From the NCBI GenBank assembly GCA_017792465.1, contig CP051234.1:3318501-3382500 (forward strand): 64,000 nucleotides of DNA. The letters run 5' to 3'. The DNA is from Filomicrobium sp. Its GTDB lineage: Bacteria > Pseudomonadota > Alphaproteobacteria > Rhizobiales > Hyphomicrobiaceae. Position numbers and translations under genes: made by a program. This document shows, piece after piece, positions 38,501-56,296 of this stretch; position 1 is the first letter of the stretch, and each line of letters starts with the position of its first letter. The notes beneath the pieces were generated by a model. That model searched no databases and was not told the DNA's origin. It saw only the letters and a list, made by a program, of their open reading frames with translations.

Positions 38501-40282
38501 ATGAAGATGACGACGGAAGAGGCTTTTATCAAAGTGCTGCAGGCTCACGGCATCGACAATGCCTTTGGCATTATCGGTTCGGCCATGATGCCGATCTCGG
38601 ATCTCTTCCCGGCAGCCGGAATTAAATTCTGGGACTGTGCCCACGAAGTGAATGCCGGTATGATTGCTGACGGCTACACGCGCTCGACGGGCAAGATGTC
38701 GATGGCGATTGCTCAGAACGGTCCGGGCATCACCAACATGGTGACGCCGATCATCACGGCCTACTGGAACCATACACCGTTGCTTCTGGTGACGCCTCAG
38801 GCTTCCAACAAGACGATCGGCCAAGGCGGCTTCCAGGAAGTTCAGCAGATGGCGATGTTTGAAGATTGCGTCTGCTATCAGGAAGAAGTTCGCGATGCAT
38901 CGCGCATTGCCGAAGTCTTGAACCGCGTCATTCTGAAAGCCTTCCGCGGTTCGGCGCCAGCTCAAATTAACGTTCCGCGCGATATTTGGACCCAGGTGAT
39001 CGATATCGATCTGCCGCAGATCGTGAAGATCGAACATCCGCCAGGCGATCCGGATGCCATCGCGCAAGCTGCGGCGTTGCTGTCTTCAGCCAAGTTCCCG
39101 GTCATCCTTAATGGCGCTGGTGTGATCCTCGCGGGGGCAATTCCTGCGTCTGCCGCGCTGGCCGAGAAGCTTTCGGCGCCGGTGTGCTGCAACTATCAGC
39201 ACAACGATGCATTCCCTGGTGGGCATCCGCTTTATTGCGGTCCGCTGGGTTATAACGGCTCGAAGGCCGGGATGGAGATGATCTCGAAGGCGGATGTGGT
39301 TCTCGCCTTGGGCACGCGTCTCAACCCGTTCTCATCGCTGCCTGCCTATCAGACGGAATACTGGCCGAAAGACGCCAAGATCATTCAGGTCGACATCAAT
39401 GCCGACCGTATTGGTCTGACCAAGCGTGTGGCCGTCGGTATCCAGGGCGATGCCCGCAAGGTTGCCGAAGAGATCCTGGCGAAGCTCGATCCGACAGCTG
39501 GTGATGCCGGCCGCGAAGATCGCCTCGCCATGGTGGCGCAGACCAAGTCGCGCTGGGCGCAGCAGCTGTCTTCGATGGATCACGAAGACGACGATCCGGG
39601 TGTCACGTGGAACGCGCGTGCCCGTGATCGCGAGCCTGATCGGATGAGCCCGCGTCAGGCATGGCGCGCCATTCAGGCGGCTCTGCCGGAGGACGTGATC
39701 ATCTCCACCGACATCGGCAACAACTGCGCCATCGGTAATGCCTATCCGGTCTTTGAAAAGGGCCGCAGATATCTGTCGCCAGGTTTGTTCGGGCCATGCG
39801 GTTACGGCCTGCCATCAATTCTTGGCGCCAAGATCGGCTGTCCCGATGTGCCTTGCGTCGGCTTCGCAGGCGATGGTGCGTTCGGCATCTCGATGAACGA
39901 GATGACGGCATGCGGTCGCAACGACTGGGAGCCGATCACGATGGTGATCTTCCGCAACTATCAATGGGGTGCGGAAAAGCGCAACACGACGCTTTGGTTC
40001 GATGACAACTTTGTCGGTACCGAGCTTAACCTCGGTGTCGACTACGCCAAGGTTGCCGATGCTTGCGGCCTCAAAGGCGTCAGAGTGTTGACGACCGATG
40101 AGCTGACGGAAGCTCTGCGCACGGCCATCAAGGAACAGATGGAGAATCGCGTCACGACCTTTATCGAGGTCGTTTTGAACCAGGAACTGGGCGAGCCGTT
40201 CCGTCGCGACGCCATGAAGACGCCGAATGTCGTCGCCGGCATCGACCGCGAAGACATGCGTCCGCAAACACCGCGGGTTTGA
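38501..40282 (+). CDS. xsc: Sulfoacetaldehyde acetyltransferase
   Basis: A 593-residue thiamine-diphosphate enzyme that converts sulfoacetaldehyde and phosphate to acetyl phosphate and sulfite in the cytoplasm, the central desulfonation step for C2 sulfonates. The glutamate that activates the cofactor is Glu49 (CAHEVNAGM). The GDG...N cofactor motif begins at GDGAFGISMNEMTACGRN near 453. The family-specific NNCAIGNAYP and FRNYQWGAEKRN segments distinguish Xsc from acetolactate synthases. The start has a CAGGGAG site. The next gene is pta, which uses its product; soeABC, which would remove its sulfite, follows. Confidence 0.97.
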   Translation: MKMTTEEAFIKVLQAHGIDNAFGIIGSAMMPISDLFPAAGIKFWDCAHEVNAGMIADGYTRSTGKMSMAIAQNGPGITNMVTPIITAYWNHTPLLLVTPQASNKTIGQGGFQEVQQMAMFEDCVCYQEEVRDASRIAEVLNRVILKAFRGSAPAQINVPRDIWTQVIDIDLPQIVKIEHPPGDPDAIAQAAALLSSAKFPVILNGAGVILAGAIPASAALAEKLSAPVCCNYQHNDAFPGGHPLYCGPLGYNGSKAGMEMISKADVVLALGTRLNPFSSLPAYQTEYWPKDAKIIQVDINADRIGLTKRVAVGIQGDARKVAEEILAKLDPTAGDAGREDRLAMVAQTKSRWAQQLSSMDHEDDDPGVTWNARARDREPDRMSPRQAWRAIQAALPEDVIISTDIGNNCAIGNAYPVFEKGRRYLSPGLFGPCGYGLPSILGAKIGCPDVPCVGFAGDGAFGISMNEMTACGRNDWEPITMVIFRNYQWGAEKRNTTLWFDDNFVGTELNLGVDYAKVADACGLKGVRVLTTDELTEALRTAIKEQMENRVTTFIEVVLNQELGEPFRRDAMKTPNVVAGIDREDMRPQTPRV

Positions 40283-40364
40283 CCCTACTCTTGCGGCAAC
40301 TGGGGGCGCGGTTCTGCTGCGCCCTCTTCTTCACTTTCCCTCAGCTCTTCTCCTCGGTCGACCG

Positions 40365-41405
40365 ATGACGCTGCTTGACGATATCTGCAATGCATCTCGG
40401 GAAGCATGTCCGCGCATCGTCCTGTCCGAAGGTGCCGATCTGCGCGTGATCGAAGCGGCTTTGCGGGCGAAGGCCGACGGGCTGGTGACGCCTGTCCTGG
40501 TTGGCAATGAGCAGGACATTCGCGACCAACTCGCAAAACAAAATGGCTTGGATCAGTTCGAGGTCCATGACCCTTTAACGTCCAAGAAGCTGGACGAGTA
40601 TGCTGCGGCTTATTTCGAGCTGCGCCGCCATCGTGGCGTCAGTGCGGATGATGCGCTGAAAGCGATGGAGACCGGTCTTGGCTTCGCCGCGATGATGGTG
40701 CGCCGCGGGGACGCCGATGGGACGATCGGAGGCGCTGTCGCAACGACAGCCGAAACGGTGCGGACCGCGCTGCAGATCATCGGCAAGGCTGACGATGTCG
40801 ATGTGGTGTCGAGCTGCTTCTTGATGCTCTTGAAGGAGCCTTTTCAGAGGCCGGTGGTGTTCGCGGATTGCGGCCTCATCATGCAGCCGACTTCTCAGGA
40901 ACTCGCTAACATCGCGATTGCGTCTGCAAAGTCGCTGAAGGCTTTGGCCGGCCAGGAGCCGCGGGTTGCGATGCTGTCGTTTTCAACGATGGGCAGTGCC
41001 GATCCCGATGCGCATGAATCGATCAACCGCATCCGCAAAGCGATTGAGTTGATCAAGGAGCGGGCGCCGGATTTGGTTGTCGACGGTGAGATCCAATTCG
41101 ATGCGGCCATCATTCCGGAAATTGCCGCGCGCAAGGCCCCTTCGTCGGTGCTGCAGGGCGATGCCAACGTCTTCGTTTTTCCGAGTCTGAGCGCCGGCAA
41201 CCTAGGCTACAAAATTGCCGAGCGGATCGGCGGGGCAATTGCTCTTGGCCCGATCCTGCAAGGCCTGGCGCACCCGGCAAACGATCTGTCTCGCGGCTGC
41301 AGTGCGCAAGACGTCTATCAAATGATTGCAATTACCGGTGCACAGGCCGCTTCACTCAAGAATGCTAACGGTGCCGATGAAGAAAGGCGCGCCCGTGTCA
41401 GGTGA
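40365..41405 (+). CDS. pta: Phosphate acetyltransferase
   Basis: A 346-residue PTA-type enzyme that converts acetyl phosphate plus CoA to acetyl-CoA, completing carbon assimilation from the Xsc reaction. It is the short form lacking the N-terminal DRTGG/AAA regions of E. coli Pta. Conserved parts are RIVLSEGADLRVIEAA at the N-terminus, MMVRRGDADGTIGGAVATTAETVR in the middle (about 110-133), and the C-terminal NVFVFPSLSAGNLGYKI segment with GPILQG. The ATG at 40365 lacks a strong ribosome site but is the first Met after xsc that fits the family. Its end overlaps the start of soeA. Confidence 0.94.
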   Translation: MTLLDDICNASREACPRIVLSEGADLRVIEAALRAKADGLVTPVLVGNEQDIRDQLAKQNGLDQFEVHDPLTSKKLDEYAAAYFELRRHRGVSADDALKAMETGLGFAAMMVRRGDADGTIGGAVATTAETVRTALQIIGKADDVDVVSSCFLMLLKEPFQRPVVFADCGLIMQPTSQELANIAIASAKSLKALAGQEPRVAMLSFSTMGSADPDAHESINRIRKAIELIKERAPDLVVDGEIQFDAAIIPEIAARKAPSSVLQGDANVFVFPSLSAGNLGYKIAERIGGAIALGPILQGLAHPANDLSRGCSAQDVYQMIAITGAQAASLKNANGADEERRARVR

Positions 41406-44247
41406 ACCCGTAATTGATCTCAGCGTTCCGGTTGGCGACAAGGTAGAGAAGACGACGTGCTACATGTGCGCGTGCCGTTGCGGGATCAACGTGCATCTGC
41501 GCGACGGCAAGGTTCGCTATATCGAAGGCAACCGCGATCATCCTGTGAATAAGGGCGTTCTGTGCGGCAAGGGTTCTGCCGGGATCATGCAGCACTACTC
41601 GCCGGCGCGCTTGCGGGCGCCGATGAAGCGGGTTGGGCCGCGTGGCTCCGGTCAGTTCGAAGAGATTTCTTGGGACGAAGCGCTGGGGCTGGCAACCGAT
41701 TGGCTGTCAGACGTTCGCAAGAAAGATCCCAAGCAGCTGGCGTTTTTTACCGGCCGCGACCAAAGCCAATCGCTCACCGGCTTGTGGGCGATGCAATTCG
41801 GCACGCCGAACTTTGCGGCTCATGGCGGCTTTTGTTCGGTCAACATGGCGGCTGGCGGGCTTTACACGTTCGGCGGGGCGTTCTGGGAATTCGGTGATCC
41901 CGATTGGGAGCTGACCAAGTATTTCATGCTGTTCGGCGTGGCCGAAGATCACGCCTCCAACCCGATCAAGATGGGGATTGGCCTCCTTAAAGAGCGTGGC
42001 GCGAAGATCGTGTCGGTCAACCCTGTGCGCACCGGATATAACGCGGTTGCCGACGAGTGGGTTGGTATCCGGCCTGGTACGGACGGGCTGTTTGTCGGCG
42101 CGTTGATCCATGAGCTTTTCCGCAACCAAACCGTCGATCTGGATTATCTTGTTCGTTATACCAACGCGCCATGGCTCGTTATCGAGGATCCGGGCGCCAA
42201 GGATCATGGGCTGTTTGCGCGTGGCGAAGATGGCGATCCGCTCGTCTACGACAAGGCAAGCGGCGGGTTCGCGAGCGCAATGCGGGTCGATACGACGCCG
42301 GCCCTGACGGGTGTGCGCACCCTTGAAGACGGGCGCAAGGCGCGGCCGGTCTTCGAACTGATGGCCGAGCGCTATCTCGGCGACGAATATAGTCCTGCAG
42401 CCGTTGCATCGCAGATCGGTGTTGCTGCCGAAGACATCCGCCGGATCGCCAAAGAGCTGGCCAACGTTGCCTTCGAGCAGGAAATCGTACTCGACCAGCC
42501 ATGGACGGACTGGGCGGGACGACGGCACGAGAAGATGATCGGCCGTCCGGTGTCCATGCATGCGATGCGTGGGATTTCGGCTCATTCCAACGGGTTTCAC
42601 ACCTGCCGGCTGATCCACATTCTGCAGATTCTGTTGGGCTCGATCGATTGCCCGGGCGGTTTCCGATACAAGCCGCCTTACCCCAAGCAGGCACCGCCGT
42701 GGCTGCTGCCGCATGGGGCATTGCAGGATATCCGGCCGGAGGAGCCGCTGGGTGGTCCGCATCTGGGTTTCCCGCTCGGCCCTCAGCACTTGCTCATCGA
42801 TGACGACAAGCCCGCCCGCATCGACAAAGGGTTCAGCTGGGATGCGCCGATGTCCGCGCATGGGTTGATGCATATGGTCATCAACAACGCGGCCAAGCAG
42901 GACCCCTACAAGATCGACGTCCTCTTCATGTACATGGCGAACATGGCCTGGAACTCGTCGATGAATGTTCCCGGCACCATCGAGAACCTGACGGCGAAGG
43001 ACGATAACGGCGACTACGTCATCCCGAAGATCATCTACTCGGATGCCTACTATTCCGAGATGGTGCCTTACGCGGATCTCATCCTGCCGGACACCACGTA
43101 TCTTGAGCGCTGGGATTGCATCTCGTTGCTCGACCGGCCGATTTCGACGGCTGAGATGGCGGCCGATTCCATTCGCCATCCTGTCGTCAAGCCCGACCGC
43201 GATGTGCGCGGCTTCCAGGAAGTTCTCATCGATCTGGCGGCGCGGCTTGGCTTTCCAGCTTTCACGAACGAAGACGGCTCGGCGAAGTTCCCGGGCGGTT
43301 ATCCAGACTACATGGTCAATCATGAGCGCAAGCCGGGTGTCGGCCCGCTTGCGGGCTGGCGGGGTAAGGACGGCTCGCGCGTTGGTCGAGGCGATCCGAA
43401 CCCCGACCAGCTGCAGCGGTATCTTGAGAACGGCGCATTCTTTGCCCACGAGCTCACGCCTGAACAGGCCTATTTCAAGCATGCCAACAAGGCGTATCTG
43501 GAATGGGCCGTGGATGTCGGTTTCCGCACGGTCGCCAAGCCGACGATCTTCCAGCTTTATTGTGAGCCGTTGCAGGCCTTCCGATTGGCTGCCGAAGGTC
43601 ATGGCGAGCGCCAGCCGCCTGAGAGCCATCGCGAACGTATCCGCACGTATTTCGATCCGCTGCCGTTCTGGTATCAGCCGTTCGAAGAGGCGATGGTGGC
43701 AGATGGCGACTACCCGCTGCATGCCATTACGCAGCGGCCGATGCATATGTACCATTCGTGGGGCAGTCAGAACGCGTGGCTGCGCCAGATCACGGCTGCC
43801 AACCGGCTCTACATCCATCATGATCTCGGCAAATCTGTCGGTGTGAAAGACGACGACTGGGTGTGGCTGGCGTCGCATCAGGGCCGCGTCAAATGCCAGG
43901 TGCGGCTGATGGACGGATGTAACCGCGATACGGTCTGGACGTGGAACGCCATCGGCAAACGGCGTGGCGCGTGGGGGCTTGATGACGACTCGCCGGAAGC
44001 CAACCAGGGCTTCCTCCTCAACCATCTGATTTCGGAACTCCTGCCGGAAGGCGGTGGCGGGTATCGCTATTCCAACTCCGACCCGATTACCGGTCAGGCG
44101 GCCTGGTTTGATTTGCGCGTTTCGATCAAGCGGGCGGATGGAGATGGCGAGACGGAACCGCGCTTCGAGCCAACAGCTCGCGGCGGGCTGCCACCTTCTC
44201 CCGATAAACTTGCCTATGGCGAAGAATTCAAGAAGGCGGACCGATGA
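41377..44247 (+). CDS. soeA: Sulfite dehydrogenase (quinone), molybdopterin subunit SoeA
   Basis: A 956-residue molybdopterin oxidoreductase of the DMSO-reductase superfamily. The N-terminal [4Fe-4S] site is CYMCACRCG plus a later Cys in VLCGKG. There is no Tat signal, placing the enzyme on the cytoplasmic face, as known for SoeABC and unlike periplasmic SorAB. With SoeB and SoeC it would oxidise the sulfite released by Xsc to sulfate and pass electrons to quinone. The family also contains thiosulfate and polysulfide reductases; the xsc-pta context and absence of Tat support Soe. The ATG at 41377 has no clear ribosome site; a GTG at 41395 with AAAGG upstream is equally plausible. Either start overlaps pta. 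Confidence 0.9.
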   Translation: MKKGAPVSGEPVIDLSVPVGDKVEKTTCYMCACRCGINVHLRDGKVRYIEGNRDHPVNKGVLCGKGSAGIMQHYSPARLRAPMKRVGPRGSGQFEEISWDEALGLATDWLSDVRKKDPKQLAFFTGRDQSQSLTGLWAMQFGTPNFAAHGGFCSVNMAAGGLYTFGGAFWEFGDPDWELTKYFMLFGVAEDHASNPIKMGIGLLKERGAKIVSVNPVRTGYNAVADEWVGIRPGTDGLFVGALIHELFRNQTVDLDYLVRYTNAPWLVIEDPGAKDHGLFARGEDGDPLVYDKASGGFASAMRVDTTPALTGVRTLEDGRKARPVFELMAERYLGDEYSPAAVASQIGVAAEDIRRIAKELANVAFEQEIVLDQPWTDWAGRRHEKMIGRPVSMHAMRGISAHSNGFHTCRLIHILQILLGSIDCPGGFRYKPPYPKQAPPWLLPHGALQDIRPEEPLGGPHLGFPLGPQHLLIDDDKPARIDKGFSWDAPMSAHGLMHMVINNAAKQDPYKIDVLFMYMANMAWNSSMNVPGTIENLTAKDDNGDYVIPKIIYSDAYYSEMVPYADLILPDTTYLERWDCISLLDRPISTAEMAADSIRHPVVKPDRDVRGFQEVLIDLAARLGFPAFTNEDGSAKFPGGYPDYMVNHERKPGVGPLAGWRGKDGSRVGRGDPNPDQLQRYLENGAFFAHELTPEQAYFKHANKAYLEWAVDVGFRTVAKPTIFQLYCEPLQAFRLAAEGHGERQPPESHRERIRTYFDPLPFWYQPFEEAMVADGDYPLHAITQRPMHMYHSWGSQNAWLRQITAANRLYIHHDLGKSVGVKDDDWVWLASHQGRVKCQVRLMDGCNRDTVWTWNAIGKRRGAWGLDDDSPEANQGFLLNHLISELLPEGGGGYRYSNSDPITGQAAWFDLRVSIKRADGDGETEPRFEPTARGGLPPSPDKLAYGEEFKKADR

Positions 44248-44993
44248 CCTCGCTGCCGGCAACGACAAATAAAAAACTTGGGCTGGTCATCGACCTTGAT
44301 ATCTGTGTGGGCTGTCATGCCTGTGCGACGAGTTGCAAGGAGTGGAATACCGGCGGGTATAGTGCGCCTTTGTCGGATCACGATCCTTATGGTGGCGATC
44401 CCTCTGGCGCCTGGCTCAATCGCGTCCATGCGTTCGAAGTTGGCGAAGGGGCGAACGCGAAGACGGTGCATTTTCCACGCTCGTGTCTGCATTGCGAGAC
44501 GCCGGATTGCGTCACGGTTTGTCCAACTGGGGCATCCTACAAGCGCGAGGAAGACGGCATCGTTCTCGTTAATCCCGACACGTGCATCGGTTGCAAGCTA
44601 TGCTCGTGGGCGTGTCCCTATGGCGCGCGCGAATACGATTACGACGACGGGGTGATGAAGAAATGCACGCTGTGCGTCGATCGGATCTACAACGAGTCGA
44701 TCCCGGAAGTGGACCGCATCCCCGCATGCGTTCGAGCCTGCCCAACCGGCGCGCGCGGTTTCGGCGATTTGGGCGATCCCGATAGCGATGTTTCAAAGAA
44801 CGTTGCGGCGCGCGGCGGCTACAACTTGCTAGATGAGTTCGGCTACAAGCCGGTCAATAAGTACCTGCCGCCGCGTGCGCCGGTTTCTGTTGCGGGTACC
44901 AAGTCAGATAGACCGGCTGAGCAGGTTCCAAAGCCGGACGGTTCCGCCGTCGAAAGGCTCTTCGCCTGGGCTGATCAAGCACTGTCACGATAA
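44244..44993 (+). CDS. soeB: SoeB, four-cluster iron-sulfur subunit
   Basis: A 249-residue ferredoxin-like subunit with four cysteine groups: CVGCHACATSC, CLHCETPDCVTVC, CIGCKLCSWAC, and CTLC paired with CVRAC. These bind four [4Fe-4S] clusters that relay electrons from SoeA to the membrane subunit. It starts inside the soeA stop (ATGA), so the two are translationally coupled. There is no signal peptide, which agrees with a cytoplasmic complex. About 40 residues at the C-terminus are Pro/Lys-rich and probably contact SoeC. Confidence 0.92.
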   Translation: MTSLPATTNKKLGLVIDLDICVGCHACATSCKEWNTGGYSAPLSDHDPYGGDPSGAWLNRVHAFEVGEGANAKTVHFPRSCLHCETPDCVTVCPTGASYKREEDGIVLVNPDTCIGCKLCSWACPYGAREYDYDDGVMKKCTLCVDRIYNESIPEVDRIPACVRACPTGARGFGDLGDPDSDVSKNVAARGGYNLLDEFGYKPVNKYLPPRAPVSVAGTKSDRPAEQVPKPDGSAVERLFAWADQALSR

Positions 44994-45005: not shown

Positions 45006-45947
45006 ATGCATCCAGCTTATTCGGTTATCGTTTTCACGACCGCCTCCGGGGCTGGTTATGGATTGCTGTTTTGGCTATCGCTCGCGCAAGTGTTCGGTTT
45101 GATGCCGGTCGATCGCTGGCTTTCGTTCACGCAGATCGTTGTCGCTTTGGGACTCATCACGGCTGGGCTCATTTCGTCGACGCTGCATCTTGGTCATTCC
45201 GAACGGGCCATCGGAGCTTTCTCGCAATGGCGTACGTCGTGGCTGTCGCGGGAAGGCGTGGCGGCGGTCGCGACCTATGTGCCGTCGGGACTGATGGCTT
45301 TCATCTGGCTTCTCGGCGTTGAGACTTCGTGGGTGATCCCGCTGGCGTTGCTTAGCGCTGCGGGTGCGGTCGTGACTGTCTACTGTACGGGGATGATCTA
45401 TGCCTCGCTGCGCACCATCCGGCAGTGGTATCTGGGGCTTGTGCCGGCGAATTATCTGGTTCTCGCTGCTGTGACGGGTGCGCTCTTGTTTGCTTTGACG
45501 ACTGCGATCTTCGAGCAGGTTCCGGCATGGGTCTCCGTTGCGTGTCTCATCGGTCTTGCCACTGCTGCAGCGTTGAAATCCTGGTACTGGCAGACGATCG
45601 ATGCCGATCCTGGAAAATATACCGCCGAGATGGCGACGGGGCTTGGGCATATCGGTAAGGTTCGTCCGCTCGATCCGCCGCATACCCGGCCCAACTTCGT
45701 GATGCGCGAGATGGGCTATGCGGTCGCACGCAAGCATGCCGAGAAGTTGCGCCGGTTCGTTTTGTTGGGGCTCTTTGCCGTGCCAGCCTTCATGGTTCTG
45801 ATTGCGCTGCTGCTCGGGATAGGTGCGCCGGTGTTCTATCTTATCGCGACGTGTGTCGCCGCCGTCGGCATCATCGTCGAACGCTGGCTGTTCTTTGCCG
45901 AAGCCGAGCATGTTTCCATGCTGTTTTATGGTCACGAGCGCGCTTGA
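45006..45947 (+). CDS. soeC: SoeC, DmsC-type membrane anchor
   Basis: A 313-residue DmsC-family protein with eight hydrophobic helices (about 8-30, 42-62, 84-106, 108-133, 146-168, 173-190, 253-275, 279-300). Such subunits anchor the iron-sulfur and molybdenum subunits and hand electrons to the quinone pool. The HLGHSERAIGAFSQWRTSWLSREG segment near 60-83 is the family's conserved loop. It follows soeB by 12 bases with an AAAGGCGG site. It closes the plus-strand run. Confidence 0.92.
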   Translation: MHPAYSVIVFTTASGAGYGLLFWLSLAQVFGLMPVDRWLSFTQIVVALGLITAGLISSTLHLGHSERAIGAFSQWRTSWLSREGVAAVATYVPSGLMAFIWLLGVETSWVIPLALLSAAGAVVTVYCTGMIYASLRTIRQWYLGLVPANYLVLAAVTGALLFALTTAIFEQVPAWVSVACLIGLATAAALKSWYWQTIDADPGKYTAEMATGLGHIGKVRPLDPPHTRPNFVMREMGYAVARKHAEKLRRFVLLGLFAVPAFMVLIALLLGIGAPVFYLIATCVAAVGIIVERWLFFAEAEHVSMLFYGHERA

Positions 45948-46182: not shown

Positions 46183-46902
46183 TCAAGCGGCCGAGCCCGC
46201 GGTGGCGTGAAGTGGACGATGATGGTTCGTCCGCGTGCGTTTCGGGATTTGGGGCAGAGTGTCGGAGGGGCTGAGGCCGCGATAGGACCGCGTCACCGCC
46301 TGCACCAATTGCGTGCGGCTGCGCACGTCGCCCTTGTCGAAGATGCGGTTGATGTGCCGCTTGATCGTCGGCTCGGTCACGCCAAGCTTCTTGCTGATGC
46401 TGATATTGCTGAGGCCGTCGCAGATCAATTGCAGGACATCGAGCTCTCTGGGCGTCAACGTCTTGGTGTTCTTGGGTGGGAACGCCGGCGTGATGCGGGT
46501 GTCGATTTTCGATTTTGCCTCATCAGCATCGTGCGCTTCAAGCCCTGCAAAATAGACCAGAGTGTCGGTGAGAAGTTCAAGCTCCCAGGCTTTTTTCACG
46601 AAGCCTTTGGCGCCCAATAGGAACGCGAACTTTCGAAGATCGGGATGTTCCTGGCCCGAGATGACGACGATGCGCGCATTCGGCAATGCCAGTCTCAATT
46701 GCAGCAGGCCGATCAGGCCGCGCGAGTCGGGAAGCCCGAGGTCGAGGAAAACGGTCTTGGGTTCTTCGCTTCGACGCACGACATGCAAAGCCTGTTTCAG
46801 AGACGCGCAATTGCGCACGCCGTTGCGACCTTGAACGGGTTTGATCGCCGTTCCGATGCCGGCGCGAATTAACGGATGATCATCGACAACTAGGACATTC
46901 AT
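46183..46902 (-). CDS. NarL/FixJ-type response regulator
   Basis: A 239-residue regulator. The receiver (about 1-120) has acidic residues at 7-8 (VVDDHP), Asp54 as phosphoacceptor (VFLDLGLPDS) and a Lys near 104. The LuxR-type DNA-binding domain (about 148-205) has LTPRELDVLQLICDGLSNISIS and VTEPTIKRHINRIF. A basic 30-residue tail (PKRTRTNHHR) follows. No kinase gene is adjacent. It sits between the soeABC end and the ligase arm, transcribed towards soeC, so a role in sulfonate control is possible but unsupported beyond position. Confidence 0.9.
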   Translation of the reverse strand: MNVLVVDDHPLIRAGIGTAIKPVQGRNGVRNCASLKQALHVVRRSEEPKTVFLDLGLPDSRGLIGLLQLRLALPNARIVVISGQEHPDLRKFAFLLGAKGFVKKAWELELLTDTLVYFAGLEAHDADEAKSKIDTRITPAFPPKNTKTLTPRELDVLQLICDGLSNISISKKLGVTEPTIKRHINRIFDKGDVRSRTQLVQAVTRSYRGLSPSDTLPQIPKRTRTNHHRPLHATAGSAA

Positions 46903-48010: not shown

Positions 48011-48892
48011 TTATGCGGCGTTCGAGGCAAGGCGTTCTTTCAACAGTCCCGGCAAGGCGCTTGGTGTGTCGGCCACTGCAACGCCGGCAGCTTCCAGCGC
48101 TGCGCGCTTCGATGGGTAGTCTCCCTTGCCGCCTGACACGATGGCGCCGGCGTGCCCCATCTTCTTGTCGGGCGGGGATTGCCGGCCGGCGATGAATGAG
48201 ACCACCGGCTTTTTCATTGTCTTTGCGAATTCGGCTGCATCCTCTTCGGCGTTGCCACCGATCTCGCCGCAAAGGACGACGCCGTCGGTGCCAGGATCGT
48301 CGTTGAGGATCTTCAGCGCATCCACCGAGGTCGTTCCGATCATGGGATCGCCGCCGACGCCGTAGAACGCCGACTGTCCGAGCCCTTGCTGGGTGAGCAT
48401 GAGGCTGATCAACGTGCCGAGGCTGCCGGAGCGTGAGATTACGCCGATCCGGCCGGGCTTAAAGACGCGGTCGTTGAACGCCGGCATGATCCCGACGAAA
48501 CATTCGCCCGGCGTCACCAGCCCGGCCGTGTTGGGCCCCACGATCTGCGTGTTGTTTGCTGCGGCGGCGACATGCATTTCCATGACGTCGTGTGCGGGGA
48601 TGTGTTCGGTCAGGCAGACGAGCATCTTGGCGCCGGCTTCGCAGGCATCGATCGCTGCATCCTTGGCCATCGCCGGCGGAATGAACATGACCGAAATATC
48701 GAAGGGCTGCTCTTTTGCGGCATCCTTGGCGGTTGCGAAGATCGGCACGCCCAAGTGCTGTTGACCTGCTTTTCGCGGGTTGACGCCGCCAATGATTGTC
48801 GAGCCATAGGCCTGCATGGCCTCGCTCCAGAAGGTACCCTGTTTGCCGGTGATACCTTGAACGAGGATTTTATGGTGCTTCCTGGGGATCAT
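48011..48892 (-). CDS. ADP-forming acyl-CoA ligase, alpha subunit (candidate sulfoacetate-CoA ligase)
   Basis: A 293-residue succinyl-CoA-synthetase-type alpha subunit. The N-terminal CoA-binding Rossmann domain is seen in ILVQGITGKQGTFW. The active-site histidine that carries phosphate is His247 in MGHAGAIVSGGKG. It starts inside the beta-subunit stop (ATGA overlap). The housekeeping sucCD pair would normally lie with TCA-cycle genes. This pair sits directly downstream of sauS and the transporter, so I infer that it activates sulfoacetate to sulfoacetyl-CoA in place of the AMP-forming SauT of Cupriavidus. Alternatives are malate or succinate as substrate. Confidence 0.85.
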   Translation of the reverse strand: MIPRKHHKILVQGITGKQGTFWSEAMQAYGSTIIGGVNPRKAGQQHLGVPIFATAKDAAKEQPFDISVMFIPPAMAKDAAIDACEAGAKMLVCLTEHIPAHDVMEMHVAAAANNTQIVGPNTAGLVTPGECFVGIMPAFNDRVFKPGRIGVISRSGSLGTLISLMLTQQGLGQSAFYGVGGDPMIGTTSVDALKILNDDPGTDGVVLCGEIGGNAEEDAAEFAKTMKKPVVSFIAGRQSPPDKKMGHAGAIVSGGKGDYPSKRAALEAAGVAVADTPSALPGLLKERLASNAA

Positions 48893-50028
48893 GCGTTCAC
48901 TCTCTCGTTGGCGGCGGCAACGGCGGCTTTGACCGCATCGTCCATCAGTTCGAACGGCTCGATTCCAAGGCGTTCCTTTACGAGTGCGATGGCTTCGTCT
49001 TCCCCGGTCCCGTGAATGGTGAAAAAGACGGGGATGTCGGGTTTGAGTTCCTGCCACGCGTTGACGACACCTTCGGCCATGACGTCGGTGCGCGCGAAGG
49101 CGCCGCAGAAATTGACGAGCAGGCTTTTGATGTTGGGGTTTTCAAGAAGGATCGAGAGGGCGGTTTTGGCCTTGGTGTAGGCTTCGCCACCGACTTCGAG
49201 GAAGTTGGCCGGTTCGCCGCCATAAAACGCGATGACGTCCATCGTCGTCATGGTGAGGCCGGCGCCATTGGCGATGACTCCGACGGAGCCGCCAAGCTCG
49301 ATGTACTTCAAGCCTTCGGCGGCGGCCTTCTTTTCCAGCTCGGTGAGCTTTTCAGGCGCGGCCTGAGGCGTGATCTCTTCCTGGCGGTAGCTCGCGCTGT
49401 CGTCGACCGTCAGCTTGCAATCGAGAGCTATGATCTTGTTGTCGCCGGTGATGACGAGCGGGTTGATTTCCAACAGTTCGGCATCAAGTCCGCGGAAGGC
49501 CTGGTAGAGCGACAGCATGGTTTCGACCAGTTGGTCTTCGACCGCTTCGAGATCCAGACCTTTGATCAGGTCGCGCGCGATGTCGGCCGTTAGACCTGTC
49601 GTGATCGAGACGGGCGCCTTGCGCATGGCGTTCGGATCTTCCTCGGCGGCTTCTTCAACGTCCATGCCGCCCATGTGCGAGAACAGCACCATTGGGCCCT
49701 TGGTCGCGTTGTCGTTGACGATCGCCAGGTAGAGCTCTCTGGCGATATTTGTCTGCGCTTCGACGAGGATCTTCTCGACCGGCCAGCCGCCAATCGTCAT
49801 GCCGATAATGTTGGCGGCATGGGATCCGGCTTCGTCGGGCGTGGAGGCGAGCTTGATGCCTCCGGCCTTGCCGCGTTTGCCGGTTGGGACTTGTGCCTTG
49901 ACCGCGCATGGACCGATCTTCTTGGCGGCGGCGGTTGCTTCACCGGCACTTGTTGCCAGTACGCTTTCTGGAACGGCAATGCCGTATTTCTTCAGAAGCG
50001 GTTTGGCCGCGTGTTCTTCAAAATTCAT
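48889..50028 (-). CDS. ADP-forming acyl-CoA ligase, beta subunit (candidate sulfoacetate-CoA ligase)
   Basis: A 379-residue ATP-grasp subunit. The N-terminus (MNFEEHAAKPLLKKYGI) and KAQVPTGKRGKAGGI near 42-56 are the nucleotide-binding start. ELLEINPLVI and ALDCKLTVDD near 190-215 give the metal ligands. The C-terminal domain has FLEVGGEAYTKAKTALSI near 275. In succinate enzymes the corresponding segments are more regular (VKAQVHAGGRGKAGGV; GGGA near the acyl site). The Gly-Glu-Ala here may reflect a different acid. Start 50028 has AAGGAT upstream; it begins 17 bases after the sauS stop. Confidence 0.85.
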   Translation of the reverse strand: MNFEEHAAKPLLKKYGIAVPESVLATSAGEATAAAKKIGPCAVKAQVPTGKRGKAGGIKLASTPDEAGSHAANIIGMTIGGWPVEKILVEAQTNIARELYLAIVNDNATKGPMVLFSHMGGMDVEEAAEEDPNAMRKAPVSITTGLTADIARDLIKGLDLEAVEDQLVETMLSLYQAFRGLDAELLEINPLVITGDNKIIALDCKLTVDDSASYRQEEITPQAAPEKLTELEKKAAAEGLKYIELGGSVGVIANGAGLTMTTMDVIAFYGGEPANFLEVGGEAYTKAKTALSILLENPNIKSLLVNFCGAFARTDVMAEGVVNAWQELKPDIPVFFTIHGTGEDEAIALVKERLGIEPFELMDDAVKAAVAAANERVNA

Positions 50029-50044
50029 CGCCTGGATATCCTTC

Positions 50045-51499
50045 CTACTTCCCGTATTTCGACCAATAAGGACCAAAGAGTTCTTCTTCGGAGGGCTGGT
50101 CTTTCGGGATTGTTGTCACGAGGTGCGTGATGTTGATGAAGTGGCGATAATTCAGGTTCTCGGAGATCGTGTTGCCGGCCCAGGTTCCGCCTCCCATCGA
50201 TAGAGTGAAGGGCAGGCAGTTATCGAAGCTGCCACCGTTTCCGAAGGTGTGCGCCTGATTGACCAGGATGCGAACGACGTCGGTTTCTGCGGCAAGTTCG
50301 CGGGCGTGCTCCAGGTTCTTGGTATGGATGCCGGCTGAGTGGCCTTTGCCGGTTACGTCAAGAATGTCGTGCACGATCTTCTTGGCTTCTGCGAAATCCT
50401 TGGCCCGATAGACGGTCAAGACGAGTGACAGCTTCTCGTCAGCGAAGGAGTGTTTGCCACCGACGCTTTGCTGCTCGACCATGAAGAACTTGCTTGACTG
50501 GGCGTCTTCGGGAAGCTTCATGACCTTGGCGAAAACATCGGCGTCCTTGGCGATGACGGCGCGATTGAGTTTGCCGTTTACCCAAAGAGTATCGCCAACC
50601 GATTGGCACTCTTCAGCCGAGCATCTCCAGCCACCGGCGCGTTCGAGGGCGGCGATGGCGTCCTCATAGACGTCATCGAGAATAACGATTGCGTTCTCCG
50701 ATGAGCATGAGGTCGAGTTGTCGAAAATCTTGGAGGCGCAGATCTTCACTGCAGCGTCGTCAAGATCGGCGGTCGAGTCGATGATGACAGGCACGTTGCC
50801 GGCGCCGACGCCGATGGCGACGGTTCCCGACTGCATGGCGCGCTTGACGTTGTTCTGGGAGCCGGTGACGACGGCCAGGTTGACCTGGTTCATCAGCTCC
50901 TGGGTCATCTCCTTCGAGACCGGGGTCGGCATGAGCTGAACAAGGTCTTCGGGGTGTCCAGCCTTCTTCAGCTCGGCGCGCATCATATCGACGGTCTTGG
51001 CCGTGGTGATGGCTCCGGCAGGCGAAGGCGCAATGATGACGGCGTTGCCGCCCTTCACTGCCATCATGGCCTTATTGACCGGCGTGGCTGCAGGGTTCGT
51101 CGATGGGCACACGGCGGCGACAACGCCGACGGGTTTACCGTATTTGACAAGGCCGCGTTCCGGCTCTTCGCTGATCACGCCGACGGTCTTGGCGCGGATG
51201 AGATCGCGCAAGGTCCCGAACGTTTTGCGGGTGTTCTTGATGATCTTCGATTCAACGTTGCCGAGGCCGGTATCCTCGACGGCGAGTTCGGCGAGCATCT
51301 TGGCGTTTTCGGGTTTGTAGATCGACCAGGCGAGTGCTCGGACGGCGTCGTCAACGCGCTCCTGGTCGGTGTTTTCGTAGGCTTCCATCGCGGCGTGGGC
51401 GCGGGCAACGATGGCTGCCACTTTGGCTTTTGGATTGTCGGCGGTATCTGAATCCGCTTTGCGATCACTGTTGATTGCGCCGGCACTCAACAAAGTCAT
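50045..51499 (-). CDS. sauS: CoA-acylating sulfoacetaldehyde dehydrogenase SauS
   Basis: A 484-residue acylating aldehyde dehydrogenase that would reduce sulfoacetyl-CoA to sulfoacetaldehyde for Xsc. The cofactor region (CPSTNPAATPVNK near 131-143), GVGAGNVPVII near 230-240 and the catalytic Cys265 (NSTSCSSENAIVI) are intact. The family also contains acetaldehyde and succinate-semialdehyde-CoA enzymes. The call rests on the single-domain length, the SauS-like C-terminal stretch and the presence of xsc-pta-soe nearby. The start has AGGAGC 6 bases upstream. A long hairpin lies in the gap before it. Confidence 0.85.
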   Translation of the reverse strand: MTLLSAGAINSDRKADSDTADNPKAKVAAIVARAHAAMEAYENTDQERVDDAVRALAWSIYKPENAKMLAELAVEDTGLGNVESKIIKNTRKTFGTLRDLIRAKTVGVISEEPERGLVKYGKPVGVVAAVCPSTNPAATPVNKAMMAVKGGNAVIIAPSPAGAITTAKTVDMMRAELKKAGHPEDLVQLMPTPVSKEMTQELMNQVNLAVVTGSQNNVKRAMQSGTVAIGVGAGNVPVIIDSTADLDDAAVKICASKIFDNSTSCSSENAIVILDDVYEDAIAALERAGGWRCSAEECQSVGDTLWVNGKLNRAVIAKDADVFAKVMKLPEDAQSSKFFMVEQQSVGGKHSFADEKLSLVLTVYRAKDFAEAKKIVHDILDVTGKGHSAGIHTKNLEHARELAAETDVVRILVNQAHTFGNGGSFDNCLPFTLSMGGGTWAGNTISENLNYRHFINITHLVTTIPKDQPSEEELFGPYWSKYGK

Positions 51500-51670: not shown

Positions 51671-52627
51671 TTAGAGGTTAGCGAGCAATTCCTTGAGGAA
51701 CTTCTCGCGGCGTTCCCACATGGCTTTCACTTCATCGCGGTTCATGACGCGCAGAGGTGAACCACCGGCGGTCATCTGTTTGACAACGCGCTTGTTCTTG
51801 AACATCTCTGGAATCTTGGCGGCGAGCTTGTCGATGACATCTTGCGGGGTGCCCTTGCGGACCATGATGCCGCGGAAGTTCACCGATGAATCGTCAACGT
51901 CGAGTCCTTGCTCTTTCATCGTCGGGACGTCGGGAAGGAAATCCTTGTCGCGTTCCAGGTCGGCGATGCCGAGGATCTTGAGGCTGTCGCGGCTGCGGTA
52001 GGCGTCAGACAGGTTGTTGACGCCGGCCATGACCTGACCGCCCAGGACCGACTTCAGTGCTGGAGCGCCGCCTTTGTGCGGAACGTATTTGAGCTCTGCG
52101 CCGACTGCTTTTTCAATTTGCAGGAAGGCGATGTGGTGTCCGACGTAGAGACCAGCACCGGAAACGGTGATTTTTCCAGGGTTGGCCTTGGCGTATTCTA
52201 CGACGTCCTTCATCGAGTTGAAGGGGCTGTCCTTGTTGACGACGAACACGGCCGGGTCTGCACCCCAGTTGGCAATCGGTTCGAGGTTGTCGATCGTGTA
52301 CTTGGTCTTGAATTTGATCGACTGCGCGATGAAGTGCGGGACGTTATAGGCTGCAAGGTCGTAGCCGTCGGTCGATGCGGAAGAGGCGAAAGCGTTCCAG
52401 CCGATCTTGCCGCCTGCACCGGGCTTGTTGAGGATTACGATCGGTTGGCCCAGATACTCCTCATTGCCAGCGACCATGGTGACGATGCGTGCCTGGAAGT
52501 CGGTTGCGCCGCCGGGGCTATAGGCGACCGTCATGCTGACCGGCCGATCGGGATAATCTCCGGCGGTCAATGGAGAAGCAAAAGCCAACATGGCCGTTGC
52601 TGCCAGTCCAAGTGTAAATTTCTTCAT
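51671..52627 (-). CDS. TTT-family periplasmic solute-binding protein (TctC-like)
   Basis: A 318-residue exported binding protein of the tripartite tricarboxylate transporter class. A signal peptide (about 1-22, ending LTA) is followed by the family start YPDRPVSMTVAYSPGGATDF, whose PGGATD loop contacts the carboxylate of the ligand, then PGAGGKIGW, and GAGLYVGHHIAFLQIEKA. These proteins bind small carboxylates. Next to sauS the ligand is probably sulfoacetate, which is inference. It is third in the transporter run. Confidence 0.92.
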   Translation of the reverse strand: MKKFTLGLAATAMLAFASPLTAGDYPDRPVSMTVAYSPGGATDFQARIVTMVAGNEEYLGQPIVILNKPGAGGKIGWNAFASSASTDGYDLAAYNVPHFIAQSIKFKTKYTIDNLEPIANWGADPAVFVVNKDSPFNSMKDVVEYAKANPGKITVSGAGLYVGHHIAFLQIEKAVGAELKYVPHKGGAPALKSVLGGQVMAGVNNLSDAYRSRDSLKILGIADLERDKDFLPDVPTMKEQGLDVDDSSVNFRGIMVRKGTPQDVIDKLAAKIPEMFKNKRVVKQMTAGGSPLRVMNRDEVKAMWERREKFLKELLANL

Positions 52628-52686: not shown

Positions 52687-53163
52687 CTAAATCAACAAGC
52701 CGCGTGGTGTCTGCACCTGCAGGAGCAGGTTAAACACGACGTAGACGAGTGACATAAATCCGGCTGTGATCACGATCCTTTTCAGCCAGACTTTCGGTGA
52801 CGTGTGTGGTTCAGGATCGTAGATGGAGAACATCGCGAAAAAACCGAGCGCCGAGCCGGCGTAGAAGCCGAGCACTGGCAGGGCGATAAAGACCGTGGCG
52901 AGCATTAGGACGGCTGCTGGAGAGACCTTGATGACTTGGTCCTGGGTAAAGCCGACGCCTGTGCGATTGGCACCTCTGAGCGCCCGCACCAGGGCCATTG
53001 TGCCAAGCAGGACGAGCGTGACCGCGATCAGCTGCGGGAAGAGGTAAGGTTGCGGGTCCTCAACCGTGAAGCTCGTGAAGCCGACCCAGAGCCCAAGTCC
53101 TAGGAGAGCAACGGCAGGGATGGTTTGCTGGAAGCGTCCGGAGACTTGCGTGTATTCGCTCAT
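52687..53163 (-). CDS. TTT-family small membrane subunit (TctB-like)
   Basis: A 158-residue protein with four hydrophobic helices (about 15-30, 42-60, 78-105, 120-147), the size and topology of TctB. Its start overlaps the stop of the large subunit by 4 bases (ATGA). A 59-base gap separates it from the binding-protein gene. It is required for assembly of the transporter, but its exact role in transport is not known. Confidence 0.88.
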   Translation of the reverse strand: MSEYTQVSGRFQQTIPAVALLGLGLWVGFTSFTVEDPQPYLFPQLIAVTLVLLGTMALVRALRGANRTGVGFTQDQVIKVSPAAVLMLATVFIALPVLGFYAGSALGFFAMFSIYDPEPHTSPKVWLKRIVITAGFMSLVYVVFNLLLQVQTPRGLLI

Positions 53164-54671
53164 GCGATGGCCTCTCTTTCGGATTCCATCCGACGAATGC
53201 GGATTTCGGTTGCGACCGAGTAAGCGATCGAAGCAATAACCAGAACGATCAGGAAGATGTTGAGGGGGCCGGTGCAGAAGTAACGGAGCATGCCATCGCC
53301 TGCTTCTGCGATAATGCGGCCCTGTACGTAGTTGTTCTCCGCGATCGGCCCGAGGATGACGCCCAAGACGAGAGGCGCGGGGCTGAAGCCGTATTTGGAG
53401 AGGAAGTACATCCCCAGTCCAAGGACGAGCATGACGACGACATCAGAATACGAACTTTGCACCGAGTAGGCCCCGAAGATGCCGAGCACCAAGACGGCAC
53501 TGGCAAGAATCGGTGGTGGAATGCGCACAACATGTGCGGCCCATTTGGCAACCCAGAGCCCAAAGACGAGCATCAAGAGCTGGCCGACCAGCAGCGAGTT
53601 GATGAAGGCCCAGGCGACGTCGCCGTGCTTCTCGAACAGGTTGGGGCCGGGGAAAATGCCGTGAATAAGCAGTCCGCCGAGAAGGACGGCCGCGGTTGGG
53701 CTGCCTGGAACCGACAAGGTCAGCAACGGAACGAGTGACGGTCCGACCATCGCGTTGTTGGCCGTTTCGGCGGCGACCACGCCTTCGCTTTCGCCGGTTC
53801 CGAAGCGATCGCGGTTGGGCGAGTAGCGGCGGGCCTGATCATAAGAAACGAGCCCGGCGATCTGCCCACCGGCTCCGGGAATGAGGCCGACGACGATACC
53901 GACGACAGCACCGATGATGGTGGCGCGAGTCTTGGAGAGTGTTTCGTAGATCGACTTGACGATGCTGTGTGGCTTGACCCTGACGACTTCCATGTCGCGC
54001 CTGACACGGCCGGTTTCGAGCATTTCAAGAACTTGAGGGATGGCGAACAAGCCGATGAGCGCGGCGATGATATGGATCCCGCCTTCAAGGTGCTCAGAGA
54101 AAATGAAGCGCTCCACGCCCTGGATCGAGTCGTAGCCGATCATCGAGATCCAAAGCCCGAGCGCTCCCGCCAAGAGGCCTTTCACGACGGATTTGGAATC
54201 CAAGGAGCCGATGATCGTGATGCCGAGAATGGCGATCCAGAACATGTGCGATGGACCGAAGCCCAAGGCGAACTGGGCCAGAAACGGCGTGAGGAAGATC
54301 AAGACGAAGATGCCGATGACGCCGCCGATGAACGAGGAGATGAAACAGATCTGGAGGGCCTTTGCCGCCTCACCTTTCTTGGCCATCGCGTTGCCATCGA
54401 GTGCGGTTGCAATGTTCGCCGGGGCTCCTGGTATTTTCAGGAGGATCGCACTGATCGCGCCGCCGGCGACAGTTGCCGTATAGGCGGCACCCAGCAGCAT
54501 CAGGCCGTGGATTGGAGTCATATGGAAGGTGAAGGGAATAAGTAGTGCAACGGCCATTGTCGGTGACAGGCCAGGCGTTGCTCCAAGCAACAAGCCGCCG
54601 ATTGTCCCGCCGCAGAGTATGGCCATTGATGTCAGCGTGAATACAGGCCCGAAGTGCTGTAAGAATTCCAC
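53160..54671 (-). CDS. TTT-family large membrane subunit (TctA-like)
   Basis: A 503-residue permease with about 11-12 hydrophobic helices and the TctA motifs GATPGLSPTMAVALLIPFT near 30-48 and IPGAGGQIAGLVSYDQARR near 285, plus SEGVVAAETANNA near 313-325. It moves the solute delivered by the binding protein, using an ion gradient. No ATG starts the frame upstream of these motifs. I use the GTG at 54671, with AGGGTGG upstream, because it gives the family length. A TTG at 54779 would add 36 polar residues. Confidence 0.9.
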   Translation of the reverse strand: MEFLQHFGPVFTLTSMAILCGGTIGGLLLGATPGLSPTMAVALLIPFTFHMTPIHGLMLLGAAYTATVAGGAISAILLKIPGAPANIATALDGNAMAKKGEAAKALQICFISSFIGGVIGIFVLIFLTPFLAQFALGFGPSHMFWIAILGITIIGSLDSKSVVKGLLAGALGLWISMIGYDSIQGVERFIFSEHLEGGIHIIAALIGLFAIPQVLEMLETGRVRRDMEVVRVKPHSIVKSIYETLSKTRATIIGAVVGIVVGLIPGAGGQIAGLVSYDQARRYSPNRDRFGTGESEGVVAAETANNAMVGPSLVPLLTLSVPGSPTAAVLLGGLLIHGIFPGPNLFEKHGDVAWAFINSLLVGQLLMLVFGLWVAKWAAHVVRIPPPILASAVLVLGIFGAYSVQSSYSDVVVMLVLGLGMYFLSKYGFSPAPLVLGVILGPIAENNYVQGRIIAEAGDGMLRYFCTGPLNIFLIVLVIASIAYSVATEIRIRRMESEREAIA

Positions 54672-55249
54672 TGATTTCCACCCTGGTACTTTGGATTCCG
54701 CCGGAGCTTTTTGCGCTGCCTGACGGTCCGATCTGTTGTTGTTGACGCACAATCCTGCATCATGAAAACGTCGTCGCAATGAGTTTCATTTTGAAGGATC
54801 ATGCTGGCGTTTCGGCGCTTCTTTACGAGCGCTTGAAGTGCTCATAGCAGGACTTGCGGCGCTCCGATCACCGACGACATTCGTTACTGAACATCGTCTT
54901 CTAGATGGTGTCCGAGAGGCATCAAGGCGTGGTAGGAACGTCTCTGTCATGCTTCGCCGACGTCGCGAAAGTCGTAGTTGGAGACAGGTTGAGCATCCCA
55001 GTCAAGGCGCTGATAATTAATAAATAATCTGAATGAAACCGGATTGTGCGCGCGCGGCCTTGCAGCTTCATTTCATCTTGTGTTTGCAGGTCTCCGGGCT
55101 TGTTTTGTAGCGGGCGAATTTTTCACTTTTTTTGTCAGGAAACGCGAAGCGCGTGCGGTGCAACAGGAGACGGTTGACGCGCGCTGGGATGGAATGAAAA
55201 TGAAAAGCATGTTCTAAAATTTTCAATCCGGGCATTATGTAGGTCGCAA
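54672..55249. other. Divergent promoter region of the transporter run and the LacI-type gene
   Basis: No gene is seen. Candidate operators: TGAAACCGGATTGT at 55034-55047, an imperfect palindrome centred on CCGG as LacI-family sites often are; and TGAAAAT with ATTTTCA 17 bases apart at 55195-55225, ending 24 bases before the LacI start. The minus-strand promoter for the transporter run was not identified. Confidence 0.4.
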
Positions 55250-56296
55250 ATGGCACGCAAAGTTCTCAGAAAAGGTTTGCCGAGCATCACGGAAGTGGCA
55301 TCGCGTGCGGCGGTCTCGCCGGCAACCGTGTCGCGCTATTTCAATTCGCCAGAGATGGTGAAAGAAGGCACGCGCGAGCGCATCGCCCAGGTGGTCAACG
55401 AACTGGGATATGTTCCGCATGCTGCAAGCAGGCTGAGCCCGAACAGCAGCGGTACGATCGGACTTGTCGTTCCGACGATCGACAATGCGATCTTTTCGGA
55501 AATGATCCAGGAGTTCTCGTCGACGCTATTCCGGAATGCCCAGACCATGTTGATTGGGACCCACAATTACGATCTTGGGCGGGAGGCGATCTTGACGGAG
55601 TCACTGCTTCAGCACGGGATCGATGCCATCGCTTTGATTGGTCTGGTTCATAACGACGAGACGTTGCAGCAGCTCAACCGTTACAAGATTCCTTCGATCA
55701 TGTTGTGGAACTATCGCGCGCGTCAGCCATGGCCGTGTATCGGCTTTGATAATCGCGAAGCGGCTGCGGCTGCGATCAAGCACCTTATTGATCTAGGGCA
55801 CGATGATATTCTGCTGTTGTTGGCTGAGACCTCTGCAAACGATCGCGCGGCGGACCGTCGTTCCGGGGCTTTGGCGGCGTTAAAGGCGACAGGCAATCCG
55901 GCAGTGGCGGAGCGCCGGATCGTGTGTCCCTATGAAGTGCAGGCCTGCAAAACCATTGTGATGGACTATTTGCGGGAAGGTCGTAGACCGACTGCGATTT
56001 TTGCCGCGAACGACGTCATCGCCCAAGGCGCGATGTTTGCCTGCCTCGCACTTGGCATTCGCTTGCCCGAGGAAATGTCGATCATCGGGATTGGTGATTT
56101 CAGGGGATCGTCCTCGATCGAGCCGGGCCTGACGACCATGCGGGTGCCGGCGAAGCGCATCGGTCGCCGTGCCGCCGAAGCGCTGGTCGAAATGATCAAC
56201 TGGCCTGCGGCTGCGCTGGATCATGGCTATAAGTATACCGCCGAGCTGATCGAGCGTGGGTCTACGGCTGCACCGCCTGTCAAGGTTCGGTCCTGA
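55250..56296 (+). CDS. LacI-family transcriptional regulator
   Basis: A 348-residue repressor-type regulator. The helix-turn-helix is at about 12-33 (ITEVASRAAVSPATVSRYFN), the hinge helix near 55-62, and the periplasmic-binding-like sensor domain from about 68 on (IGLVVPTIDNAIFSEMIQEF). It is divergent from the transporter-sauS-ligase run, the usual position of a local regulator. It probably senses sulfoacetate or a derived intermediate. The DNA-binding half is conventional but is preceded by a basic extension (ARKVLRKGLP). Confidence 0.93.
   Translation: MARKVLRKGLPSITEVASRAAVSPATVSRYFNSPEMVKEGTRERIAQVVNELGYVPHAASRLSPNSSGTIGLVVPTIDNAIFSEMIQEFSSTLFRNAQTMLIGTHNYDLGREAILTESLLQHGIDAIALIGLVHNDETLQQLNRYKIPSIMLWNYRARQPWPCIGFDNREAAAAAIKHLIDLGHDDILLLLAETSANDRAADRRSGALAALKATGNPAVAERRIVCPYEVQACKTIVMDYLREGRRPTAIFAANDVIAQGAMFACLALGIRLPEEMSIIGIGDFRGSSSIEPGLTTMRVPAKRIGRRAAEALVEMINWPAAALDHGYKYTAELIERGSTAAPPVKVRS

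Follow-up and report, generated by a model that had tools for sequence, protein, structure and literature searches.

A Filomicrobium-like bacterium very probably carries an inducible locus for the uptake and complete breakdown of sulfoacetate, a sulfur compound of wide occurrence. In this locus the sulfonate would be activated by SauCD, a two-subunit CoA ligase of the ADP-forming type. The locus spans positions 38501–56296 of a 64,000-nucleotide stretch of DNA (hereafter, the window). The window corresponds to bases 3318501–3382500 of a closed, 4.47 Mb genome. When genome contigs were searched with the sucC-like protein of the locus, the nearest named relatives were Filomicrobium and other Hyphomicrobiaceae. 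One arm of the locus comprises xsc, pta and soeABC. The other, on the opposite strand, comprises tctABC, sauS and a pair of sucC- and sucD-like genes, with a divergent lacI gene. A preliminary description of this DNA had proposed sulfoacetate as the substrate, and all of the genes that it listed were found where it placed them. Its sulfoacetate reading is supported by the matches of SauS and Xsc to curated equivalog models, by sauS-sucCD synteny, by the tendency of SauS and Xsc to occur in the same genomes, and by a ligase pocket unlike that of succinate and malate enzymes.

The proposed pathway begins with a tripartite tricarboxylate transporter (TTT), which would import sulfoacetate. The large membrane subunit (tctA, 53160–54671, minus strand, from a putative GTG start at 54671), small membrane subunit (tctB, 52687–53163, minus) and solute-binding protein (tctC, 51671–52627, minus) match PF01970 (448.5 bits), PF07331 (54.8 bits) and PF03401 (139 bits). 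All three, and LacI, are over the Pfam cut-offs. SauCD would then convert sulfoacetate to sulfoacetyl-CoA, with conversion of ATP to ADP via a phospho-histidine. The beta (sucC-like, ATP-grasp) subunit is encoded by sauC (48889–50028, minus) and the alpha (sucD-like) subunit, with phospho-histidine H247, by sauD (48011–48892, minus). The catalytic machinery is evident in the sequence, and we infer that its substrate is sulfoacetate. Since SauCD is of the ADP-forming type, activation would be expected to cost one phosphate bond, compared with two for an AMP-forming ligase. SauT of Cupriavidus necator is AMP-forming.

SauS, the CoA-acylating sulfoacetaldehyde dehydrogenase (about 50045–51499, minus, or longer if it starts at 51622), would convert sulfoacetyl-CoA to sulfoacetaldehyde. 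Xsc, sulfoacetaldehyde acetyltransferase (38501–40282, plus), should form acetyl phosphate and sulfite from sulfoacetaldehyde and phosphate, as is established for this enzyme. The identities of both proteins, as first proposed, held: each lies far above its equivalog cut-off (NF047625, 787.4 against 600 bits, for SauS; TIGR03457, 910.4 against 676.4, and NF005713, 1004.5 against 620, for Xsc). This xsc is the only copy in the genome at E ≤ 1e-200. Pta, phosphate acetyltransferase (40365–41405, plus, with a possible upstream start at 40227), matches TIGR00651 (354.7 bits; cut-off 311.2) and PF01515; by its established reaction it should yield acetyl-CoA from acetyl phosphate.

Sulfite would be oxidised to sulfate by a SoeABC-type complex, a probable sulfite dehydrogenase. 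The molybdopterin subunit (soeA-like, 41377–44247, plus; PF04879, PF00384 and PF01568), 4Fe-4S subunit (soeB-like, 44244–44993, plus; PF13247, 86.3 bits) and membrane anchor (soeC-like, 45006–45947, plus; PF04976 DmsC, 49 bits) lie in one row, as expected of SoeABC, and an ATGA overlap joins the first two. None of the NCBIfam models reached its cut-off with SoeA, and hence the protein is named from its domains and synteny. Searches of window positions 36001–58000 with five SauT-type proteins, and with one SauU-type protein of the major facilitator superfamily (MFS), gave no match; SauCD and the TTT genes are present instead. The genome has eight TauE-type exporters and the window has none.

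The ligase pair and its substrate pocket

SauC, which contains PF08442, scores 373.1 with NF001913 (cut-off 370), 341.5 with TIGR01016 (below the cut-off of 375.55) and 300.2 with the malate-CoA ligase model NF010647 (below 604). SauD scores 343.5 with NF004230 (cut-off 336) and 342.2 with TIGR01019 (below 353.2). NF001913 and NF004230 are NCBI models for succinate-CoA ligase and, because both are just exceeded, automatic annotation would call the pair SucCD. In a quick SauC tree, the 58 SauC rows all group in a single clade (SH-aLRT 100), apart from two odd paralogues and from 31 SucC/MtkA rows, which come from the same genome and from related ones. The 58 rows were taken from 138 by thinning the loci of the sucC search to every third and dropping short copies of the same loci. 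All Sau rows were picked by identity (at least 48% for SauC and 52% for SauD) and length, not by their neighbours.

Elsewhere, the host genome has genes for an MtkA (699 bits; cut-off 604) and a SucC (560 bits; cut-off 370), as well as two further SucC-like genes. The odd paralogues come from the same genome. At L197 (9625–16323 of C1:3030501–3050500), a further sucCD-like pair precedes a gene for formate dehydrogenase alpha and has an unusual pocket, with R280 and G-M-Q at 310–312 in the beta subunit and S at the Tyr place in the alpha subunit. At L196 (8926–16577 of C1:2979001–2999000), a sucC-like gene with these beta-subunit oddities (R280, G-M-Q) lies near TTT-like genes. Also near it is a gene for a thiamine-diphosphate enzyme resembling acetolactate synthase or 2-hydroxyacyl-CoA lyase, below the cut-offs for both.

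The residues that bind succinate in the pig enzyme (5CAE) are listed in PMC11489063; the far carboxylate is held by a Tyr and by the backbone of a GIV motif. We mapped the residues given there onto our alignment by motif context. Counts refer to distinct rows (106 SauC, 96 SauD, 30 SucC/MtkA and 24 SucD/MtkB), with the odd paralogues of L196 and L197 outside the 30. Residues that contact the phosphate or the reacting carboxylate are retained: alpha N121, S155 and H247 in 96/96 rows and beta G280 in 106/106. Conversely, the places that face the far carboxylate are altered. The alpha Tyr place is T in 88 of the 96 SauD rows (T160 in the window), V in seven and A in one. Beta positions 310–312 read A-F-A in 101 SauC rows, including the window (A310-F311-A312), and A-I-A in the other five, whereas all 30 SucC/MtkA rows have G-I-M or G-I-N. 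At beta position 337, likewise, all 106 SauC rows carry S, T or A and all 30 SucC/MtkA rows carry R. Taken together, the retained catalytic residues and altered far-carboxylate places point to the machinery of an ADP-forming ligase with a pocket that is not of the succinate or malate type.

Gene neighbourhood and the link to desulfonation

To define the company of sauCD, genome contigs (one genome per species) were searched with the sucC-like protein alone. This confirmed 190 relatives, of which the best 80 loci were used. The preliminary description had called for such a search, and the arrangement is indeed conserved: sauS lies directly upstream of sauC at 73 of the 80 loci. Five of the others have room for sauS but lack it, and two end at a contig edge. 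Thus, sauS and sauCD are adjacent beyond chance. The sucD-like gene follows sauC in 78/80 loci, and xsc is within 39/80 stretches (24/38 among loci longer than 20 kb). In Hyphomicrobium and its kin (L057, L058 and L073), sauCD-like pairs without a nearby sauS have neighbourhoods that resemble one another.

The genome of Filomicrobium insigne has TTT genes together with sauSCD and xsc (L041 and L174). On an Azospirillum brasilense plasmid, tctCBA-sauS-sauC-sauD-soeABC, one small gene and then xsc share one orientation. The order is repeated as far as soeABC in Indioceanicola profundi, where a nearby xsc occupies the opposite strand. Plasmid pDK3 of Rhodococcus sp. DK17 combines sauSCD with an MFS gene, xsc and phosphotransacetylase. 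Furthermore, xsc immediately follows sauD in L180, L146 and L177, which suggests that the xsc of the window has moved to its own transcription unit.

These data bear on the possibility that the pair duplicates an enzyme of the citric acid cycle or serine cycle, acting on succinate or malate, and stands beside sauS by chance. The narrowly exceeded succinate-CoA ligase models speak for this, as does a report that a SucCD activates the sulfur analogue 3-sulfinopropionate (PMC6370202). However, SauC belongs to a distinct clade, the far-carboxylate residues for succinate are replaced, the malate-CoA ligase model is far from reached, both canonical enzymes are encoded elsewhere in the genome, and sauS is the neighbour at 73 of the 80 loci. 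We consider such a duplicate improbable.

The link to desulfonation was measured in genomes chosen by SauS only, to avoid ligase bias. Three overlapping samples covered the class (385 genomes), relatives of the window's genome (59) and the phylum (398). In the class sample, Xsc was found in 20 of the 24 genomes with an over-cut-off SauS, compared with 26 of 361 others (Fisher 3.5e-17). Among relatives, the figures were 20/23 and 6/36 (Fisher 9.6e-8); both tests ignore shared descent. Genomes with SauCD beside SauS had Xsc in 11/14 cases in the class and 15/17 among relatives, the window's genome being in both samples. For genomes with SauT, the counts were 6/7 and 1/2, and for those with neither ligase they were 2/2 and 3/3.

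Could the module act on another sulfonate, such as 3-sulfopropionate? A precedent is HpfX-HpfYZ of Enterococcus gilvus, where a SucCD-like sulfonate ligase, inactive on sulfoacetate, also stands beside an acylating aldehyde dehydrogenase (PMC11489063). The substrate in that case is 3-sulfopropionate, and the pocket carries His at the Tyr place and a beta GIN motif, as described in the same source. The window has T and AFA at these places, and hence its pocket differs from that of HpfYZ as well as from those of the canonical enzymes. In addition, SauS matches its own equivalog, and the genome's single xsc is within the same locus. A switch of substrate therefore appears slightly less probable still than a duplicated enzyme. 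Least probable of all is a module that runs in reverse, oxidising sulfoacetaldehyde (from taurine, for example) to sulfoacetate with a gain of ATP and excretion of the product: SqwD-SqwKL of fermenters runs so (PMC12890257) and the HpfXYZ reactions, which are related, can go either way (PMC11489063), but Xsc, Pta and SoeABC, encoded alongside, use up sulfoacetaldehyde, the first genes of the row specify a TTT system of the type used for uptake, and the genome has no taurine-binding protein over the cut-off (82.9 against 304.25 bits; other taurine importers were not sought).

Gene arrangement and regulation

The genes of the ligase arm are tightly joined, as the preliminary description had noted. 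Thus, sauC and sauD share an ATGA overlap (48892/48889), tctB and tctA overlap likewise (53163/53160) and only 16 bases separate sauS and sauC. The start codons of sauS (51499 or 51622) and tctA (GTG at 54671) are uncertain. The two arms lie tail to tail on opposite strands. Between them are genes for a LuxR-type response regulator (46183–46902, minus; PF00072 and PF00196) and a universal stress protein (47045–47887, minus; PF00582). Hence, the locus is not one operon. A homologue of the universal stress protein gene also follows xsc in two loci of the same genus (L178 and L180).

The lacI-family gene (55250–56296, plus; PF00356 and PF13377) is divergent from tctA, and a homologue occupies the matching position in several relatives. 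We built an operator motif from eight sites, picked by eye in the regions upstream of the relatives' lacI genes; the window was excluded and L183 gave no site. The best match in the window is a near-palindrome upstream of tctA (54762–54789; ATGAAAA-N14-TTTTCAT with one mismatch). It scores 26.5 bits, whereas the highest score in 20 mononucleotide shuffles was 17.0. When the pattern was sought throughout the 4.47 Mb genome, this was the only site with one mismatch. Nine sites had two mismatches, and a control with the pattern read backward gave four in all. One of the nine is a weaker operator-like site before lacI (55200–55227) in the same intergenic region; at 14.9 bits, it is inside the range of the shuffle maxima. 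So is a sequence upstream of xsc (38420–38447; 10.4 bits), which could be due to chance. The site at 54762 is a probable binding site for LacI. The regulator would control tctABC-sauSCD, and probably be released by sulfoacetate or a derivative.

Two branches of SauS and related systems

According to the preliminary description, the two-subunit ligase replaces SauT. A ligase of the SauCD type is present, as claimed, but the notion of replacement is misleading. Across the three samples, 49 genomes (the window's included) had an over-cut-off SauS. A sucCD-like pair was beside it in 31, an AMP-binding ligase in 11 and neither in five; two were at a contig edge. We call the AMP-binding neighbours SauT from their position and family, as no curated SauT model matched. 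SauCD and SauT loci numbered 14 and 7 in the class sample, 17 and 2 among relatives, and 2 and 4 in the phylum sample, which is small. For class and phylum combined the ratio was 15:9. SauCD thus predominates most clearly among genomes close to that of the window.

Seventeen SauS-like genes below the curated cut-off were excluded from the 49-genome count. Two (L159 and L160) are 44–45% identical to the window's SauS and have an AMP-binding ligase beside or near them. The other 15 are 36–42% identical; 14 of them fall on a distant branch of the SauS tree, which was built from 71 SauS-like proteins. This was a quick tree, with a long-branch warning, and L171, the fifteenth, was removed because its frame has 75 residues. 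One branch (SH-aLRT 99) holds 14 SauT-type rows and one contig-edge row. Another (SH-aLRT 95), which includes the window's type, holds 33 SauCD-type rows, five rows without a ligase and one at a contig edge. The tree does not resolve where the Rhodococcus SauCD row (L206) belongs, and the 'T' label of L168, one of the 15 genes just mentioned, is doubtful, as it reflects weak (25–28%) matches some kilobases away. With only SauCD and SauT rows considered, ligase type changes once on the tree. Against all other rows, the SauT group needs three changes and the SauCD group seven, the latter because rows without a ligase nest inside the SauCD branch. The branch to which a genome's SauS belongs largely predicts the kind of adjacent ligase, if any. 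Because SauS proteins of the two types are on separate branches, SauCD looks like a parallel type and not a local substitute for SauT; it also outnumbers SauT in the class and among relatives.

The genes around sauS follow a different pattern. The LacI-TctABC set accompanies SauT at L153, L154 and L198 and SauCD at L146, L147 and L149. Importers also vary among SauCD loci, with another TTT at L174 and L177 and an MFS gene at L142, L182 and L200. Importer and regulator are thus exchanged while SauS keeps its kind of ligase. At L144, L158, L179, L190 and L192, over-cut-off sauS genes occur with no SauCD or SauT in the vicinity; Xsc is nonetheless encoded by each of the five genomes, and at L192 sauS is divergent from xsc. 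A further gene arrangement was seen on a plasmid of Haloterrigena sp. KLK7 (NZ_CP149788.1; L207, 5934–11562). Here, haloarchaeal TTT genes accompany a gene whose product is SauS-like (51% identity to SauS of the window), and a gene for a family III CoA-transferase (PF02515, 409 bits) comes next. Neither a ligase nor, within the 19 kb stretch, an xsc is annotated. This CoA-transferase might possibly provide a third route to sulfoacetyl-CoA.

Several observations weigh against our account of the locus. As noted above, the pair exceeds two NCBI succinate-CoA ligase models (373.1 versus 370 and 343.5 versus 336). Five sauC loci have room for sauS and lack it (L057, L058, L061, L073 and L087), five over-cut-off SauS genes lack an adjacent ligase, and the phylum sample favours SauT. 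The Fisher tests for Xsc take no account of ancestry, and the operator-like sequence upstream of xsc falls short of significance. Finally, five SauCD genomes have no Xsc match. Their completeness is 70% (G226), 100% in 30 contigs (G335), 90% (G087), 93% (G385) and 70% (G388), and the stretch from G087 begins within a 41% Xsc-like match. The complete genome, G335, is the hard case: its locus (L138) has TTT genes, sauSCD and soeABC, yet the genome gave no xsc match at E ≤ 1e-200.

The preliminary description had stated that ADP-forming sulfoacetate ligases are known, and this is borne out by the review PMC12890257, which describes SqwKL and the SauCD of Bilophila wadsworthia. The latter is likewise a two-subunit, ADP-forming enzyme that works with SauS (PMC12890257; PMC12625764; Liu 2023), and SauXYZ is a putative TTT transporter of the same organism (PMC12625764). 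By description, these features are common to B. wadsworthia and the window. The fates of sulfoacetaldehyde differ: in B. wadsworthia it is reduced to isethionate, with anaerobic cleavage by IseG, whereas in the window Xsc, Pta and SoeABC would lead to acetyl-CoA and sulfate. SqwD-SqwKL of sulfoquinovose fermenters also pairs an acylating dehydrogenase with an ADP-forming sulfoacetate-CoA ligase (PMC12890257; Chu 2023). Unlike the direction proposed here, it operates toward sulfoacetate, with a gain of ATP in anaerobes. Cupriavidus necator shares SauS and the route via sulfoacetyl-CoA and sulfoacetaldehyde, but has SauT and the MFS carrier SauU where the window has SauCD and TTT (PMC12625764, citing Weinitschke 2010).

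Another precedent is the sponge symbiont OTU3, a gammaproteobacterium with a predicted sauSCD-TTT cluster and also xsc and pta (PMC12625764, 2025). Hence, this gene combination is not new. The enzyme set is the same and is predicted from sequence in both cases. OTU3 is an uncultured metagenome-assembled genome of another class, and its xsc and pta are discussed in connection with taurine. The passages of PMC12625764 on OTU3 state no linkage to LacI or soe, both of which the window has. The same study counted sauSCD in three of 99 other bins. Our analysis adds the active-site signature, the two-branch survey, the operator-like site before tctA and the possible haloarchaeal CoA-transferase route. 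For the first three, no earlier account was found in the portions of the open PMC literature consulted.

On balance, and with modest confidence, we favour the view that SauCD and SauS make up a sulfoacetate module of old and separate origin, which moves as one block independently of SauT-SauS and probably exceeds the latter in frequency among Alphaproteobacteria. The module would bind the sulfonate in a pocket of its own (alpha T160-L161, beta AFA at 310–312 and S/T337) and combine freely with TTT or MFS importers and Xsc. Its pocket would represent a second way, unlike the His/GIN solution of HpfYZ, of turning the SucCD fold to sulfonate. In plasmid records, the pair is labelled succinate-CoA ligase, 'ATP-grasp domain-containing protein' or 'CoA-binding protein'. 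Hence, annotation that looks for sauT alone probably misses some of the sulfoacetate users among environmental Alphaproteobacteria. With the residue signature, the genes in question become easy to locate, and the way in which the SucCD fold came to accept a sulfonate can be tested. An energy-saving first step, previously known from a gut bacterium in the sources cited here, would thus be common to many related environmental bacteria.

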